A stretch of 64,000 bases of DNA from Glycomyces sp. YM15 (GTDB lineage Bacteria > Actinomycetota > Actinomycetes > Mycobacteriales > Micromonosporaceae). The stretch is taken from contig NZ_JAERMK010000007.1 in assembly GCF_016918015.1 (NCBI RefSeq), positions 1 to 64,000 on the forward strand, written 5' to 3'. A model generated the notes under the pieces. That model ran no database searches. It was not told the DNA's origin and was given only the letters and a program-made list of their open reading frames with translations. A program made the translations under genes and the position numbers. The stretch's first letter is position 1, and every line of letters starts with the position of its first letter. Below, one piece after another: positions 10,063 to 43,683 of this stretch.

Positions 10063-10884
10063 ATGGCCGACAACGGCGACACTCCTAACGGCTCCACCGC
10101 TTCCGTCGGCGGCTTCGACCGCCGACGGCTCTTCACGCTCGCGGCGGGAGGGGCCGCTGCCGCCTCGGGCATCCTCCTCCCCGCGACTGCGGCGCAGGCG
10201 CACGGCGAACTCCGGTACTACTCCGGCATCTGGGCTCAGAAGACGGTCAACTCGGCCAACGCTCAACTCAAGTCATACAGGTACCGACCGGCGTTCCACG
10301 ACAAGCTGAACGCCTGGCTGCAGCTCTGGTTCGAGAACACGCCGTACGAAAAGCCGCTCCGAGTGTGGATCTCAGGAGTGCACAAGGACAGCGGCAATGC
10401 GGCGCAGCAGCAGGGCAGGGCGCTCCTCCTCGACCACATCTACGTCAATCACGGCGGCCCCAACGCGCAGGGCGCCTTCCAGGCCAACTACGAGATCTGG
10501 GGCAGGGGGAGCGGTTCGGGCCTCACCTACGCCCGCAATAACTACTGGGCGACTGCGGCGACCCTCCACTACCACTTCGGAACGGTGCGGACCTATCTCA
10601 ACGGCAGCAGAGTCAGCCTCTACGTCGACAACATGACGTCCGGCACCGGCACCACTTCCTTCACCAGGACCAAGTCGCAGATCCTGCATGTTCAGGCCAG
10701 CTGCCGCTATATCTGGGGCAAGGGGACCGCCATCGACGGCGTATGGAGCGACCAGGCCAAACGGCACTCGCACGAGGTCCTGGAGCGGATCGGCAAGGGC
10801 GGCTACCTGGGAACGTCGAAGTCCCATTGGCAGGCGTTCAACGTCGCCACGATGCGCAAGGGCATCGGGACCGAAACCTACTGA
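10063..10884 (+). CDS. Tat-secreted protein of unknown function, weakly peptidase M15-like
   Basis: ATG 10063 starts a Tat signal (FDRRRLFTLAAGGAAAASG) ending near ATAAQAHG; the frame is open upstream but without signal-like sequence. The 273-aa protein then has an ~80-residue segment (PLRVWISGVHKD, GRALLLDHIYV) and a C-terminal half with YWATAATLHYHFGTV and HVQASCRYIWGKGTAIDGVW. The arrangement recalls secreted M15/extensin-like proteins, in which a SxHxxGxAxD motif and a later HxH bind zinc. Here the expected ligands are largely replaced (QQQGRALLLD; SLYVDN), so catalytic activity is doubtful. That family link is my inference and unverified. Confidence 0.55.
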   Translation: MADNGDTPNGSTASVGGFDRRRLFTLAAGGAAAASGILLPATAAQAHGELRYYSGIWAQKTVNSANAQLKSYRYRPAFHDKLNAWLQLWFENTPYEKPLRVWISGVHKDSGNAAQQQGRALLLDHIYVNHGGPNAQGAFQANYEIWGRGSGSGLTYARNNYWATAATLHYHFGTVRTYLNGSRVSLYVDNMTSGTGTTSFTRTKSQILHVQASCRYIWGKGTAIDGVWSDQAKRHSHEVLERIGKGGYLGTSKSHWQAFNVATMRKGIGTETY

Positions 10885-11009
10885 ATGCGCGGGCGATGGT
10901 CCCGATCTTCCAGGGCTCGAAGAGTTCCTGCGCAACGAGCCGGACGTCTGGTGGCACCTCGCCGCCTGAGCCGACAGCGGAGCCTCCCCGGTCGGCCTAT
11001 CATTGCCGC

Positions 11010-13622
11010 ATGGCCGACCCCCTGTCCAAAGCCACCGCCAATCTCCGTCAGCTGCGGCTGCGGGCGATGATGACGCAAGAGGAGCTCGCCCTCAAATCGG
11101 GGGTCGGGACGCGGACCGTGCGTGACATCGAGTCAGGGAAGGTCCGGCCGCAGCCGCGAACCCTGCGGCTGCTGATCGAAGCGCTGGACCTGGACGAGGC
11201 CGACCGGGCGATGCTGGCCAGAGTGCCGGACGAACCCACGGCGCGGGACCTCGCACCGATGACGCTCCCGTCGGGCACGACCGCGTTCACCGGCCGCAGT
11301 GCGAGCCTCGCGACGTTGGACGAAGCGGCGGACGCGGCGTCGAGCCCGCTTGTCATCCTGTCCGGCACCGGGGGCGTCGGCAAGACGATGCTGGCCCTGC
11401 ACTGGGGACACCGCGCCGCCGACCGGTTCCCAGGCGGGCGCTTCTACCTCGACCTGCACGGCTTCGCCCCAGGCGCGATCGCGATGGAGCCGGCCGAGGC
11501 GGTCCGCCACCTGCTCGGCGCGATGGGCGTGGAGCCACAGCGGCTGCCGACCGAGGCCGATGCCCAGCTGGCCCTCTACCGCACCCTCATCGGCAGCGAG
11601 CGCCGCCTGCTGATCCTCGACAACGTCCGCGACGCGGAGCAGGTGCGGCCGCTGCTTCCGGACGGCGCCCAGGTGCACACCGTGGTGATCAGCCGCCGCC
11701 GGCTCGTCGGGCTCGCGGCGTCGCACGGCGCGGCGTCCATCGAGGTGGGGACGTTCGACACCGCCGAAGCCGCCGCGCTGCTCGAGCGTCAGCTCGGGAC
11801 GGCTCGGATCGCGGCCGAACCCGAAGCGGCGGAACGGGTGCTGGCCTCGTGCGCGGGACTGCCGCTGGCCCTCGCCATCGCCGGTGCCAGGGCCGCGACA
11901 CGGCCCGATCTCCCCTTGGGCACCGTCGCCGACGAGCTGGCCGCCTCGCGGCTCGACGCGCTCGCGATCGATGAGCCGTCGATGGACCTCAGGGCGGTGT
12001 TCTCCTGGTCCTACCGCTCGCTCGAACCCGACGCGGCTCGGCTGTTCCGGCTGCTGGCCGTCATCCCCGGCCCCGACTTCGACACGGCTGCGGCCGTGCG
12101 GCTCCACGGCGGCACCAAGGCGGATGCCGTGCGGGCACTTCGATCCCTTGCGGACACTCACTTGGTCGAGTACGGCCGCCCTGGCCGCCACCGCCTCCAC
12201 GACCTGATCCGCGCGTACGCGGTCGAACTCCTCGAATCCGAAGTGTCGCAGTCCGATCGCGACGCCGCCCTCGACAGGCTGCTCGACTGGTACCTGCACG
12301 CGGCCGCCGCGTGCCGTGCGGCGCTCTACCCCGCGATGCTCAGCCTGCCCCTTCCCGACACTGGGAACACCTTCGAGCCGACGGCGGCGGAGGCGGCGCA
12401 GTGGCTGGAGGCCGAGTGGGAGAACCTCATCGCGGCCGTGGAACTCGCCGCCGCGCACGGACGGGCGCGGTTCACCTGGCTCTTGGCCGATGTGCTGCGC
12501 GGATACGTGTGGCTCCACATGCTCGGCGATGACGGCGTTCGCATGAGCAGGGCTGCCTATGCTGCGGCGTCAGACGCCGAAGATTCGCTCGGCATGGCTT
12601 CGTCAGCGCTCGCGCTGGGCTGCGCGCTGATGCGCTCCAACCTGCTCGAGGAGGCCGTCGACCACCTGCGCGACGCCGCCGACTTCGCTCGCCGCGCCGA
12701 TTGGCCCGCCGGCGCCGCGGCGAGCGAAGGGAACACCGCGATGGCCTGCTACCGCCAAGGCAGGATGCGCGACGGACTGGACCACGCTTACGGTGCGTTG
12801 CGTGCGTACCGGGCGATAGGCGAGCGTCGCTCCGAGGGCTCGAACCTGCAACTGATCGGACTTTTCCACTCCCTCATGGGAGAACTCGACACGGGCATCG
12901 ACTACCTCGAACAGTCGCTCAAGTTCGCGACGGAGGCGGACAACGACCCGATCCGCCTGCTCCTGCTGACGCACCTGGCCGAGATCCAGATCCACCGCGG
13001 GCGCCTCGACCTCGCGGCCGCCCATCTCGACGAGGCCGCCGACCTGGAGCGCAGCAGCGTCAGCATCGACAGGACCAGCGACATCCCCGGGGCGCGGGCA
13101 CGGCTCCTGCTGGCCGCGGGGCGGATTGCTGAGGCCCTGGAACTCGCAAGCCAGGTGGTCGCGGAGCGGACCGGCGATGCCGACCACCGAATCCGAGCCG
13201 CCGCGATGGTCACCCTGGCCGCCGCCCTCGACGCCGCGGGCGATCACCAGGAGGCGGTCGACCTCTATGACCGCGTGCTCGCCATGACCGAGCACGACGC
13301 CACCGTCTTTCACCGGGTCGAGGGGATGGTGGGCCGCGCGGGGGCGCTGCTGCGCGGCGGCGACGCCCCCGTTGCCGAGAACGCTGCCGTCCAGGCACTG
13401 CAGCTGGCCCGGCAAGCCGAGTACCGGTTCCTGGAAGGCCGGGCGCTCAACGTGCTCGCCGAGATCGACCTGCGGGCCGGACGGCTCGCCGAAGCCGCCG
13501 ACCGGGCGACCAGGGCCATGGAGATCCACCGTCAGACCGGCCACCGCGCCGGTGAGGCGGTGTCGCTCCAGCTCCTCGCCGACTGCGCCACTGACCCGGA
13601 GATCGTCCCGCGCCCGGCGTGA
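11010..13622 (+). CDS. XRE-family regulator with NB-ARC ATPase and TPR repeats
   Basis: Start ATG 11010 begins MADPLSKATANLRQLRLRAM, a normal N-terminus for this family; the frame is open further upstream into the preceding gene. The 870-aa protein has an XRE helix-turn-helix (residues ~10-62, TQEELALKSGVGTRTVRDIE). An NB-ARC NTPase follows, with P-loop GTGGVGKT (119-126) and a Walker B-like LLILDNV. The C-terminal half consists of tetratricopeptide repeats (many AAxLxxA helices from ~residue 530). Such STAND-type proteins act as signal-integrating transcription regulators in actinomycetes, often near secondary-metabolite genes. The SARP/BTAD domain is absent. It lies ~1.6 kb from the peptide-P450 pair on the opposite strand, so a link is possible but unproven. 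Confidence 0.85.
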   Translation: MADPLSKATANLRQLRLRAMMTQEELALKSGVGTRTVRDIESGKVRPQPRTLRLLIEALDLDEADRAMLARVPDEPTARDLAPMTLPSGTTAFTGRSASLATLDEAADAASSPLVILSGTGGVGKTMLALHWGHRAADRFPGGRFYLDLHGFAPGAIAMEPAEAVRHLLGAMGVEPQRLPTEADAQLALYRTLIGSERRLLILDNVRDAEQVRPLLPDGAQVHTVVISRRRLVGLAASHGAASIEVGTFDTAEAAALLERQLGTARIAAEPEAAERVLASCAGLPLALAIAGARAATRPDLPLGTVADELAASRLDALAIDEPSMDLRAVFSWSYRSLEPDAARLFRLLAVIPGPDFDTAAAVRLHGGTKADAVRALRSLADTHLVEYGRPGRHRLHDLIRAYAVELLESEVSQSDRDAALDRLLDWYLHAAAACRAALYPAMLSLPLPDTGNTFEPTAAEAAQWLEAEWENLIAAVELAAAHGRARFTWLLADVLRGYVWLHMLGDDGVRMSRAAYAAASDAEDSLGMASSALALGCALMRSNLLEEAVDHLRDAADFARRADWPAGAAASEGNTAMACYRQGRMRDGLDHAYGALRAYRAIGERRSEGSNLQLIGLFHSLMGELDTGIDYLEQSLKFATEADNDPIRLLLLTHLAEIQIHRGRLDLAAAHLDEAADLERSSVSIDRTSDIPGARARLLLAAGRIAEALELASQVVAERTGDADHRIRAAAMVTLAAALDAAGDHQEAVDLYDRVLAMTEHDATVFHRVEGMVGRAGALLRGGDAPVAENAAVQALQLARQAEYRFLEGRALNVLAEIDLRAGRLAEAADRATRAMEIHRQTGHRAGEAVSLQLLADCATDPEIVPRPA

Positions 13623-13846: not shown

Positions 13847-15184
13847 CTACGGACGAACTCGATGCCTCGCCGACTCGTCGCGGCCGACTCGAACGCGGAA
13901 CCGGCGGGGTCTGGCGATCGCGTCCCACTGTGGTTTGATCGGTCCCGAACGCGACGTCACGGTCCTGCCGTCGAGCAGGTCGGCCGCGGTCTCCAGTACG
14001 GCGTTGGAGATGTGCACGCCGGTGCACATCCGGGGGCCTGCGCCGTACGGGAGGTATGCGTGCGGCTCGTGGACCTTGTCGGCGAGCCAGCGTGCCGGAT
14101 CGAACCGGCTCGGGTCCTCGCGCCACCAGCGGGGATCGGTGTGGAACAGCAGAGGACTGATGAAGACCGAGTTGTCGGCTGAGACCGTGTAGTCCCCGAA
14201 CTCCCTGTCCTCGACCAGAACCCGGCTGGTGAGCGCGACCGGTGGATAGGCCCGCAGGGTCTCCTTCACGACTGCCCGCGCCCAGTCCTCGCGGCTGGTC
14301 GTCTCGGGCCTGGCGAAGTCGTGTGCGCCGTGGGCTGCGAGCAGCCACGCCAGTCCGGCGCCGCCGACCGTGTAGAGGTTTCCGAGGTTGATTGAGAGCG
14401 TCTGCGCCACATCAAGATCGGTGAACGCCGGACCGTCGTCGTCGCGAGCGTCGAGGAGCAGGTCAAGGAGGTCCGACGGAGGTTCATCGGGGTTGCGGGA
14501 CGCCCGGCGCGATGCGACGTGCGCCAGGAGCGCCTCGATCATCGCGTCGTTCGCGCGTATTCGACGGTGCGTCCACAGCGAGAGCCAGGCGGGCGGTGCG
14601 ATCGAGGACATGCCCTGGGGAATGAGCAGGGCCGCCGCGCGGATCATCTTCGCGCGCAGATCGCCTTCCAGATCGCGGATGAAGATCGCACCGGCAGCGT
14701 CGAGAAGGACGCGCTCGCAGTCGCGCATGCGGATGGCCGCGTGTTCGGCGCGATCGAGGAATTGTTCGAGGTGCAGACGGATGCCCGGGACCGTCCGTTC
14801 GGCGATGTCGCGGCCGAGGCGGTGCCATTGGGCGGTGCGTTTGGTGGCCATCCACGTCTCGACGTTGTCGCGGACGAGACCCCGGCGCTGGACCGCGCGG
14901 GGCGGTTCGGGCGGGTCGACGAGGGTCTCGCGATTGGTGTGGGCCAGTACCCAGCGCGCCCATTCGGGTCGGGCGAGCGCGACTTTGCCTGCTCCGAAGG
15001 CGTAGACGTCACCGTATTCGCCCCGCAGGCGGGCCAGGGACGCAACCGGGTCGCGGTCGAAGTCGTCAGGAGGGAGGCCGAACGGCCGCGGCGCCGGTCC
15101 CGGAAGGGGTTGAACAGATCCCCTTGCACCGCTTGTGGAGACAGGCACCGGATTTGCGCCGGCACCGCGACCGTCAGAACTCAT
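13847..15184 (-). CDS. Cytochrome P450, candidate RiPP-modifying enzyme
   Basis: The 445-aa protein has the P450 signature: ExxR in VVKETLRAYPP and the heme loop YLPYGAGPRMCTGVHI with heme-ligand Cys387. The I-helix region (SINLGNLYTVGGAGLAWLLA) lacks the usual A-G-x-D/E-T acidic-Thr pair, so oxygen activation may differ from canonical monooxygenases. ATG 15184 lies two bases after the stop of a 29-codon peptide gene (TAA-GA-ATG), with GGAG just upstream, so the two are co-transcribed and probably coupled. A P450 directly after a tiny peptide gene rich in Trp/Tyr at its end is the layout of P450-crosslinked RiPPs such as tryptorubin-type atropopeptides. The peptide-substrate role is inference. 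Confidence 0.9.
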   Translation of the reverse strand: MSSDGRGAGANPVPVSTSGARGSVQPLPGPAPRPFGLPPDDFDRDPVASLARLRGEYGDVYAFGAGKVALARPEWARWVLAHTNRETLVDPPEPPRAVQRRGLVRDNVETWMATKRTAQWHRLGRDIAERTVPGIRLHLEQFLDRAEHAAIRMRDCERVLLDAAGAIFIRDLEGDLRAKMIRAAALLIPQGMSSIAPPAWLSLWTHRRIRANDAMIEALLAHVASRRASRNPDEPPSDLLDLLLDARDDDGPAFTDLDVAQTLSINLGNLYTVGGAGLAWLLAAHGAHDFARPETTSREDWARAVVKETLRAYPPVALTSRVLVEDREFGDYTVSADNSVFISPLLFHTDPRWWREDPSRFDPARWLADKVHEPHAYLPYGAGPRMCTGVHISNAVLETAADLLDGRTVTSRSGPIKPQWDAIARPRRFRVRVGRDESARHRVRP

Positions 15185-15186
15185 TC

Positions 15187-15276
15187 TTACTCCGTGTAAT
15201 AGGCCACGTACCAGCGGCCAGCGGTGACTTTGCCTCCGATGATGCGGGCGACCGCTGCCTTGGCGAGACTTCGCAT
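15187..15276 (-). CDS. 29-aa putative RiPP precursor peptide (atropopeptide-like)
   Basis: ATG 15276 is preceded by GGAG at a 6-nt spacing (GGAGCGAACATG) and the frame ends at TAA 15187-15189. The product has a basic, alanine-rich amphipathic N-terminal part beginning MRSLAKAAVARIIGG. Its C-terminal tail is GKVTAGRWYVAYYTE, with W22, Y23, Y26 and Y27. This is the design of a leader plus aromatic core. In tryptorubin-type atropopeptides the core is a Trp/Tyr hexapeptide at the precursor C-terminus, crosslinked by one P450. Here the aromatic spacing is W-Y-x-x-Y-Y and two residues (T-E) follow. The P450 gene begins 2 nt downstream. Functional assignment is inference from composition and context. 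Confidence 0.75.
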   Translation of the reverse strand: MRSLAKAAVARIIGGKVTAGRWYVAYYTE

Positions 15277-15366
15277 GTTCGCTCCATTCCGTAGTGGCGG
15301 CTTGAGGCCGCCGCCGTTTTCGTACGCCAAGTACAGCAGCAGGAAGTGGTGATTTCGAGGCGTTTC

Positions 15367-15388
15367 ACCGGCGGGAAACCGGCGGGAA
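15367..15388. repeat. Tandem 11-bp repeat upstream of the peptide gene
   Basis: The unit ACCGGCGGGAA occurs twice head-to-tail (15367-15377, 15378-15388), about 90 bases upstream of the putative precursor peptide start. It could be an activator-binding site. No other copy was noticed nearby. Confidence 0.4.
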
Positions 15389-15557
15389 GCAGTCGACCCC
15401 TCATCTGGCCGTCGTGGGCGATCACCAACAGCCGCAACGCCATGAAGGCTCCGCATCGAGCTTGGCGGGGACGAGAGAGGCACGACAAGGCACAAAGGAG
15501 CGGGCGGGGCTTCGTTCGAGCAGAGGATGACGGAGCGCCGGGTCGGCGCCCCGCGTG

Positions 15558-15818
15558 ATGGACGCGGGGGAGGCGAGTGGTGAGGGTGATGGCGATCTCG
15601 AAGCGGGCGAGTTGAGCGCCGGCGCAGGAGTGGATGACTTCGCCGAAGGCGACGTGATGCGATGTGCGGGCCCGGTCGGGGTCGAAGACGGCTGCCTGGG
15701 TGAAGGCGGTCTCGTCGCGGTTCATGGCGGCGAGGAGGAACCGGACGGGCGTGTGCGGCGCGAGGATGGTCTCTGAGGGGAAGCTATTGCCTAGCAGGAC
15801 ACCCGTAATCCATTGCAC
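15558..15818 (-). pseudogene. C-terminal remnant of a second cytochrome P450
   Basis: The minus-strand frame contains TPVRFLLAAMNRDETAF and FDPDRARTSHHVAFGEVIHS followed by CAGAQLARFEIAITLTTRL. This is the meander and heme-binding loop of an ordinary bacterial P450 (the F-G-x-x-x-H-x-C-x-G pattern). The N-terminal ~300 residues are missing, and the frame is lost after TTRLP before the usual end. It is not closely similar to the intact P450 next to it, whose heme loop reads YLPYGAGPRMC. Confidence 0.65.
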
Positions 15819-41694: not shown

Positions 41695-43683
41695 TCAACG
41701 GTGCGCCGGCTCGGCGGTCCGATGCCGCCACAGCTGCACGCCCGCCACCGCCAGGACCAGCGCCAACCCGATCGCGTCGAACACGAACCGGGGTGCCACG
41801 ATCAGCGCCATGGCCGCGACCATGGCCACGCGCTCGACGAGCGTGGTCCTGGTGAGCCAGTAGCCTTCCAGCGCCACGGCGAACGCGAACAGTCCACCCA
41901 TGCCGGTGACCACCGCCAGCGCCACCTCCGCGGGGCTGCCGTTGAGCAGGAGCGGCGAATACGCCATGAGCAGCGGTATCAGATAGAGGCCCTTGGCGAA
42001 CTTCCACGCCGAGAAGCTGGTCCTCATCGGACTGGCTCCGGCGATGCCCGCAGCGGTGAATCCCGCCAGCGCCACCGGAGGCGTGACGTTCGAGTCCTGG
42101 CTCAGCCAGTAGATGATCATGTGGGCGACGATGATCGGCAGCCCCAGGTCGAGCAGTGCCGGGCCGGCGAGCACCGCCAGCACCACGTAGGAGGCGGTCA
42201 CCGGGAGGCCGAGGCCGAGCACCAAGGAGGCGAGGGCGATCATCAGCAGCATCAGCAGCAGGTTCTCACCCGCGAAGTCGACCATCATGCCGGAGAATCG
42301 CAGGCCCAGGCCGGTGAGCCCGACCATTCCCACCACGATTCCGGCCGCGGCCGTCGCCACCGACACGGTGAGCGTGTTCCGGGCCGCCAGTACGAAGACC
42401 TCGGCGAGATCGCGCAGGCTCAGTCGGCTGGACCGTCGCAGCATGGCCACCACGAACAGGGCGACGACCGCCCAGAGTCCGGCCTTGATCGGCGCGACGT
42501 ATTGGAACAGCAGGTACACCAGCAGTGCGAACGGCGCCAGGAAGTGGAAGCCTTGGGCGAGAATCGTTCTGGCCCGAGGGAGCGACCCGGCCGGAATGCC
42601 GCCGATGCCCTGCTTGCGGGCCAGGATGTCCACGAAGAGGAAGACGACGGCGAAGTACATCAGCGCCGGGATGATGGCGACCAGCGCGATCTCGGCGTAG
42701 GGGACGCCGATCATCTCGGCCATCACGAAGGCGCCCGCGCCCATGATGGGCGGCAGGAGCTGTCCACCGGTGGACGCGGCCGCCTCCACTCCGCCGGCGT
42801 CGTGCGCCTTGTAGCCGACCCTCTTCATCATCGGGATCGTGAACGCGCCCGTGGTGACGGTGTTGGCGATGGCGCTGCCGGAGATCGAACCCATGAAGGC
42901 GCTGCCCACGACGGCGCCCTTCGCGGGACCTCCGCGGTACTTCCCGGTCAGGCAGTTCGCCAGGTCGATGAAGAAGTTGCCGCCTCCGGTCTTCTCCAGC
43001 AGCGCACCGAAGAAGATGAACATGAAGACGAACGTGGCCGCCACCCCGAGTGCGAGACCGTAGATGCCCTCCTGGAACAGGAAGCTGTGGTAGGAGATCC
43101 GCTGGAAGGTGTATCCGCGGTGCGCGAGGAAGTCGGGGAGCAGCGGCCCGATCCAGGCATACGCCAGGAACACGGCCACCAGAACGCTCATGAACAGGCC
43201 GATGGTCCGGCGGCACGCCTCCAGGAGCAGCAGGACCATCACCGTGCCCATGGCGACGTCGAGGTCGCTGGGGTCGCCGATGCGCAGCAGGATCGAGTCG
43301 TATTCGACCACGGGGTAGAGGCTGACTGCCACGGCGACCGCGACGAGGACGAGGTCTGCGATGGCCATCGGCAGGCGGCGTGCCCATCGCCGCTTGGCGG
43401 CGGGTTTGAGCATGAACACCAGCACCAGCACGAACATCAGGTGGACCACGCGCTGGTGGTAGGAGTTCAGCGACAGGAACAGCGCGGTGTAGAGCTGGAA
43501 CGCGCCGAGCAGGACGGCCACCGCGAGGACGACGACGCCCGCCGGTCGGGCGAGGGCGGTCTCGCCCCAGCGGTCGGCGGCCAGGCGCTGCCACAGCGGC
43601 CGCGGGTCGGGCGGTTCGGGGACGTTCGCTTCGACTTGCTTCGGTTTTTCGGCGTCCGGCAGGGACCGGGCGGATTTGGACAT
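41695..43683 (-). CDS. TRAP transporter permease, fused 4TM/12TM (TAXI type)
   Basis: The 662-aa polytopic protein has a ~55-residue cytosolic N-terminus. Four membrane segments of the small (DctQ-like) part come next, then the large DctM-like part with GSAFMGSISGSAIANTVTTG, GGVEAAASTGGQLLPPIMGA and VTASYVVLAVLAG. These are hallmarks of the fused permease of TAXI-TRAP systems. It uses ion gradients to import a small acid or similar solute delivered by the TAXI binding protein encoded just upstream. Together with the divergent two-component genes it forms a complete sensing-and-uptake unit. Confidence 0.9.
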   Translation of the reverse strand: MSKSARSLPDAEKPKQVEANVPEPPDPRPLWQRLAADRWGETALARPAGVVVLAVAVLLGAFQLYTALFLSLNSYHQRVVHLMFVLVLVFMLKPAAKRRWARRLPMAIADLVLVAVAVAVSLYPVVEYDSILLRIGDPSDLDVAMGTVMVLLLLEACRRTIGLFMSVLVAVFLAYAWIGPLLPDFLAHRGYTFQRISYHSFLFQEGIYGLALGVAATFVFMFIFFGALLEKTGGGNFFIDLANCLTGKYRGGPAKGAVVGSAFMGSISGSAIANTVTTGAFTIPMMKRVGYKAHDAGGVEAAASTGGQLLPPIMGAGAFVMAEMIGVPYAEIALVAIIPALMYFAVVFLFVDILARKQGIGGIPAGSLPRARTILAQGFHFLAPFALLVYLLFQYVAPIKAGLWAVVALFVVAMLRRSSRLSLRDLAEVFVLAARNTLTVSVATAAAGIVVGMVGLTGLGLRFSGMMVDFAGENLLLMLLMIALASLVLGLGLPVTASYVVLAVLAGPALLDLGLPIIVAHMIIYWLSQDSNVTPPVALAGFTAAGIAGASPMRTSFSAWKFAKGLYLIPLLMAYSPLLLNGSPAEVALAVVTGMGGLFAFAVALEGYWLTRTTLVERVAMVAAMALIVAPRFVFDAIGLALVLAVAGVQLWRHRTAEPAHR

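Follow-up and report, generated by a model that had tools for sequence, protein, structure and literature searches.

The window analysed here is a stretch of 64,000 nucleotides from Glycomyces sp. YM15 (contig NZ_JAERMK010000007.1, positions 1 to 64,000). It contains a peptide gene of only 29 codons followed almost immediately by a cytochrome P450 gene. The original prediction likened this pair to the genes for atropopeptides, the RiPPs of tryptorubin type. Which reaction such a P450 might carry out on such a peptide, and whether the likeness extends beyond the gene plan, are the questions raised by the locus.

The precursor gene and its P450

The precursor frame runs from an ATG at 15276 to a TAA at 15187 on the minus strand (29 aa plus stop, 90 nt) and has its own GGAG at 15285-15282, in agreement with the prediction. 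The features of the locus are as follows.

15356..15388, minus strand: upstream element of 33 nt with direct repeats of about 11 bp, TTCCCGCCGGT TTCCCGCCGGT GAAACGCCTCG; precedes the precursor gene
15282..15285, minus strand: precursor ribosome-binding site GGAG, 5 nt before the ATG; same place in 9/9 loci
15187..15276, minus strand: precursor peptide gene, MRSLAKAAVARIIGGKVTAGRWYVAYYTE; found in 9/9 close loci, window included
15217..15276, minus strand: leader, codons 1-20; changes tend to fall at third codon positions
15190..15216, minus strand: core region, codons 21-29, RWYVAYYTE; variable apart from Y23 and Y27
15208..15210, minus strand: Tyr23 codon; invariant, proposed crosslink partner
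15196..15198, minus strand: Tyr27 codon; invariant, proposed crosslink partner
15190..15193, minus strand: second GGAG, within the last precursor codons and 5 nt before the P450 ATG
13847..15184, minus strand: cytochrome P450, proposed macrocyclase, 445 aa; I-helix without the acid-Thr pair
10743..13622, plus strand: HTH-NB-ARC-TPR protein, open reading frame as listed; convergent with the P450

The precursor stop is separated from the P450 ATG (15184) by 2 nt (GA). The second GGAG could serve the P450, and since it sits within the final precursor codons, translational coupling of the two genes is suggested. The leader/core boundary is placed provisionally at codons 20/21. The peptide matched no Pfam or NCBIfam family at E 1. 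The P450 scored 110.6 bits against Pfam p450 and has the heme loop YLPYGAGPRMCTGVHI, while its I-helix stretch, SINLGNLYTVGGAGLAWLL, lacks the acid-Thr pair. This pair helps oxygen cleavage in hydroxylating P450s. Both the intact P450 at a distance of 2 nt and the missing pair had been predicted, and the DNA and the alignment bear them out; W22, Y23, Y26 and Y27 likewise stand in the precursor where they had been placed.

Just upstream of the precursor gene, positions 15570-15752 of the minus strand (within the open reading frame 15174-15818) encode a fragment from the C-terminal end of another P450, HVAFGEVIHSCAGAQLARFE, with a Pfam score of 23.4 bits against a cut-off of 22.8. It is apparently a decayed gene.

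Conservation in Glycomyces and the pattern of the core

A genus search showed that 8 of 22 Glycomyces genomes carry nine P450s of the window type, the window's included, the other eight being 62-87% identical to it. Reading by eye revealed a 27-29-codon precursor directly before the P450 in 9/9 of these loci. Small frames before related P450s were where the original prediction expected the peptide to be conserved, and it is kept in all nine close loci. The sole match in the named genome collection was Glycomyces algeriensis DSM 44727 (P450 87% identical), whose DNA encodes MRSLVKAAVARAIGGKVTAGRWYVAYYTD at the equivalent place upstream of the P450.

One more Glycomyces genome (G008) carries only a remnant of the cassette, at about 41929-42246 of its contig C20 (L019, L104). 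The upstream element and the ribosome-binding site are kept there and are followed directly by the P450 heme-loop region; everything from the precursor start codon up to the heme loop is gone as a single block. This loss fits precursor and P450 being a unit. Among the 11 stretches compared, the P450 was the sole gene common to all those having it intact. Few other neighbours were common (pairwise, one gene at 86% in L100 and L104 and four at 32-45%), with the neighbours chosen by third-position GC, by which some genes may be missed. With so little shared gene context, precursor and P450 again look like the unit.

Two flanking elements recur. The upstream element was found in 9/9 loci and in the G008 remnant. 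Across the same 22 genomes it was matched with at most 2 mismatches at 64 places in 16 genomes (some listed as L106-L125), and the reversed control pattern gave no match. Of these places, 54 lie away from a window-type P450, and at least 4 of 12 examined precede exported or lipoprotein-like genes. The element looks like a genus-wide regulated promoter. The convergent HTH-NB-ARC-TPR gene is present in 4/10 Glycomyces stretches (window, G018, G014 and the G008 remnant) and is the only neighbour besides the P450 common to at least three of them. Its true start is probably further in, because the HTH domain begins near residue 100. The three other copies occupy the equivalent position and are 32-37% identical to the window's and 61-73% identical among themselves. 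A role as regulator of the locus is possible, with an uncertain link: the window's own genome has 9 NB-ARC places, 8 of them above the cut-off, so the adjacency may be due to chance and shared descent.

The nine Glycomyces precursors have conserved leaders, all containing GG, and variable tails: RWYVAYYTE, RWYVAYYTD, HYYRLHYPE, GWYAWHYWL (twice), SWYSLYYME, SYPLPYPK, NYRLPYAQ and DYRLPYPK. A tenth locus, L046, has a 31% identical P450 in another family with MSIFHSIKAKRAAASAGKYYIRMYPV just upstream; this precursor is without GG, and its leader can be aligned only with gaps. A search for further L046-type members in 149 genomes of that family returned one, L046 itself.

Over nine distinct precursors, the alignment has invariant columns at M1, A7, G15, Y23 and Y27. 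The C-terminus reads Y-x-x-x-Y-x-x in 10/10 loci (nine Glycomyces and L046), an end produced by 0.2-1% of shuffles of each peptide. This is the only core feature kept throughout. The original prediction had all of W22, Y23, Y26 and Y27 crosslinked; conservation upholds the choice of Y23 and Y27 and does not extend to W22 and Y26. Because they are the only conserved core residues, Y23 and Y27 are the best clade-wide candidates for a crosslink. The pattern does not amount to ten independent events, nine of the ten loci belonging to one genus, and the two tyrosines could be retained for binding or packing instead of crosslinking. The loops between them read VAY, RLH, AWH, SLY, PLP, RLP and IRM.

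An unlikely alternative is a RiPP locus that uses the known ring spacings. W22 would then be linked to Y23, the i,i+1 spacing of tryptorubin, or two residues would be joined at i,i+3, for example Y23 and Y26, and Y27 would serve recognition. The available parts of the published accounts describe P450-RiPP rings of i+1 (Trp-Tyr, tryptorubin), i+2 and i+3, and the residues needed are common here, with W before the first Tyr in 5/10 loci and Y or H before the second in 6/10. Nevertheless, L012, L015 and L027 have S, N or D at the W22 position and P at the Y26 position while retaining precursor and P450, so a clade-wide link cannot use these positions. A co-varying W22-Y/H26 pair was also considered. 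Where an aromatic precedes Y23 in a Glycomyces locus, Y27 is preceded by Y or H (6/6); in the remaining three loci it is preceded by P. The pair was rejected, the three P loci forming one tree clade (one event) and L046 breaking the rule (Y with M).

Codon positions were counted in six 29-residue Glycomyces precursors, two of them identical in sequence. Changes at positions 1/2/3 numbered 64/75/100 in leader codons 1-20 and 60/53/39 in core codons 21-29. As judged from these counts, the leader is constrained and the core free, which is the usual RiPP pattern. Mean pN and pS for the precursor were 0.28 and 0.37, against 0.31 and 0.27 and 0.29 and 0.33 in the shifted frames. The difference is only modest, and taken by itself the codon test would be too weak; the case therefore rests on leader, tail and position.

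The P450 clade and its sister group

Related P450s were collected by an order search (E 1e-25; 12/397 genomes, of which four belong to the window's genus), a class search (5/394 genomes, own included) and a family profile search (32/200 genomes at E 1e-40, nine of them Glycomyces). At most 4 candidates per genome were scored for order and class and 8 for family, which makes absences soft. Plasmid records gave no match at E 1e-15. Three loci from these searches with ordinary I-helices (L043, L047 and L048) served as controls.

The remaining group consists of L016, L037-L042, L044, L045 and L073-L093, many of them in the window's own family, and is referred to as the sister group. A candidate precursor of 25-32 residues was read upstream of the P450 in 27/27 distinct loci, with start codons picked by eye and three further rows of the family search outside the 27. 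Tails with Y-x-[YW] were seen in 24 of 25 typed precursors (L044 and L088 being omitted as identical to L042 and L087), the exception being L016. The Y-x3-Y-x-x end occurred in 0/25. Examples of the tails are GRYPYWFYNYPE, GRYIYWPYHYE, GRYEWWYYHQA, GGLYFYWDISN and AGRYPWRH; with several core types, the group possibly makes several products.

Common ancestry of these precursors with those of the Glycomyces clade is weakly indicated. A model built on the sister precursors gave the window peptide 6.4 bits, a score matched by 14/2000 shuffles. L009 scored 6.4 bits (11/2000) and L010 9.9 bits (1/2000), and the scores of L014, L011 and the other four were reached by 99/2000, 364/2000 and at least 659/2000 shuffles, respectively.

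A small-ORF caller that takes a ribosome-binding site, a length of 22-34 aa and at least 3 aromatics among the last 12 residues fired at 29/36 loci of the Glycomyces clade, the sister group and L046, and at 1/21 other P450 loci. Because of this difference, the peptide upstream of the P450 is more than chance. Three of the seven misses are Glycomyces loci with fewer aromatics. The lone control match was L048, MRKMILTGALFARLTRKDRLTLPYSYY. L048 has an ordinary ET I-helix, yet a 27-residue open reading frame with GGAGG, ending LPYSYY, lies upstream, 225 to 141 nt before the P450 match, and is possibly a precursor itself.

The P450 tree comprised 55 rows, with L085, L003, L004 and L005 dropped. Support was 100/100 for the Glycomyces clade, 98/94 for this clade plus L046, 98/98 for the sister group and 100/100 for the atropopeptide P450s; it was only 83/83 for Glycomyces, L046 and the sister group together. 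A joint clade was rejected neither for Glycomyces and the atropopeptide P450s (p-AU 0.081) nor for Glycomyces and ordinary P450s (p-AU 0.16). By these sequences the Glycomyces P450 clade is distinct, and the sister group is loosely its nearest kin, a placement that is unsettled. A firm grouping with ordinary P450s, which would have spoken against the original prediction, did not appear. In the sister-group model the window P450 scored 205.5 bits and L048 254.0; in the ordinary P450 model the window P450 scored 156.6 bits.

The I-helix acid-Thr pair is absent from 9/9 Glycomyces P450s, from L046 and from every sister row with letters there, whereas 9/11 comparison P450s have ET at this site. 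Because the pair is absent and a leader-bearing aromatic peptide adjoins the gene, oxidative coupling of side chains appears the likeliest reaction of the P450.

A different outcome would be that the P450 oxidises the peptide by hydroxylation or dehydrogenation with no crosslink, or that the peptide is a regulatory leader ORF of an ordinary P450. The tight coupling of the two genes would also suit a leader ORF, and the unrejected joint clade with ordinary P450s, the 156.6 bits in the ordinary P450 model and the higher sister-model score of L048, with its ordinary I-helix, all agree with such a reading. It is nevertheless rather improbable: the acid-Thr pair is absent, aromatic tails occur in 10/10 loci, and there is no reason for a regulatory ORF to keep Y-x3-Y-x-x invariant at its end while its interior varies.

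The proposed product and known systems

The reading that we favour, and consider fairly probable, is a two-gene RiPP locus centred on Glycomyces in which the P450 joins Y23 to Y27 (i,i+4), and possibly W22 to Y26. Precursor and P450 would be translated together. The P450 would bind the conserved leader (RSL.KA...AR..GGK), pull the C-terminal tail across the heme and couple aromatic side chains instead of inserting oxygen. The clade-wide link between Y23 and Y27 would close a ring over Y-V-A-Y-Y, and the window version may have a second link, W22-Y26, also i,i+4. A protease encoded elsewhere would then remove the leader, possibly after GG. By analogy, i,i+4 is the spacing of one helical turn, as in a stapled helix.

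More tentatively, and less probably than not, the P450s may be a family that closes Tyr-x3-Tyr rings; in the window peptide, the staggered W22-Y26 and Y23-Y27 links would then interlock as a bicycle within a core of six residues. If the favoured reading is true, the field gains a clade of P450 macrocyclases that has a leader of its own and closes a tyrosine ring at i,i+4, beyond the i+1 to i+3 spans of the rings in the accounts available. The natural loop variants between the two tyrosines would then offer ready material for finding out which positions are read by a crosslinking P450. No report of the Glycomyces clade was found in the literature searched; the likeliest surveys (He 2023, Nam 2023, Liu 2024) lie outside it and may already list the clade.

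A yardstick for atropopeptides was obtained by searching 199 genomes of one genus, that of G424 and G913 and probably Streptomyces, with a KSLK-WxxW pattern. There were three matches, one of which, reading KSLKASAWYLWY, was followed. Its P450 was matched in 14/101 genomes, and 12/12 fetched loci had KSLK and AWYxWY. An earlier KSLK pattern, perhaps too strict, had found nothing in 394 class genomes.

In the available parts of its source, the atropopeptide definition consists of a KSLK leader motif (or RSLK, ESLK, KSRK, KPLK, PSLK) and a core xWxxxx with Trp at core position 2 (PMC11450843). The KSLK-type motif was found in 0/9 distinct window-clade precursors, against 11/11 atropopeptide precursors as the positive control. 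The core Trp is absent from 5/10 window-clade loci; the window peptide has W22 and continues to residue 29. Against a model built from 12 atropopeptide P450s, the window P450 scored 44.6 bits and the members 641-693, with ordinary P450s reaching 59.3 and sister P450s 68.9. The window precursor scored 1.2 bits in the precursor model, reached by 156/2000 shuffles. Membership was rejected on the missing KSLK, the unconserved core Trp and the P450 score. A true atropopeptide with a drifted leader would account for the two-gene plan, the similar precursor length, the WY in the tail and the unrejected joint clade, and is highly improbable given these results and a tail that runs two residues beyond the last Tyr. 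What stands of the predicted likeness is the minimal precursor-plus-P450 RiPP plan; kinship beyond this plan does not. A search that depends on KSLK, as the refined CoreFinder requires in the available description (PMC11450843), would miss the window clade.

Atropopeptides such as tryptorubin A and scabrirubin, as described in the available parts of PMC11450843 and PMC12352619, resemble the window locus in the two-gene plan and the short aromatic-tailed precursor. Their P450s likewise lack the I-helix acid-Thr pair (12/12). The window clade differs in the two residues after the last Tyr, in its conserved i,i+4 pair and in its P450 clade, and the predicted difference between the core and the tryptorubin AWYIWY is supported.

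The window P450 matched no NCBIfam model above its cut-off; its best match, ApyO of aminopyruvatide (NF050147, an equivalog), reached 79.9 bits against a curated cut-off of 525. Biarylitides also have a minimal peptide-plus-P450 locus, but their precursors, in the available parts of PMC13417212, have 5-8 residues with aromatics at 3 and 5, compared with 26-29 residues including a leader here (29 aa in the window).

The micitide/pseudosporamide link runs from Tyr i to Trp i+2 in the available parts of PMC11002830, PMC13250620 and PMC7277628. The sister group is likened to the micitide type by its Y-x-[YW] core motif; one member, L076, ends RYPWRH, and Tyr-Pro-Trp is the pseudosporamide sequence (PMC7277628, in the part available). 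The window peptide has Y-V-A in place of a Tyr-x-Trp core, which occurs in the window clade only in L011/L013 (Y-A-W), where an additional i,i+2 link is possible.

In the wide sense of a P450-crosslinked RiPP, or cyptide, the layout is present: a short precursor with a conserved leader and a variable aromatic tail beside a P450. The window locus would be of cyptide type, with a putative aryl crosslink. The cyptides roseovertin, rubrin and lapparbin likewise have aromatic links made by a single P450 on a ribosomal peptide. Compared by description only, and as far as the available parts of PMC12299652, PMC11002830 and PMC13383641 go, their links are i+2 and i+3 versus the i+4 proposed here, and the ring size proposed for the window peptide may be unlike those described.
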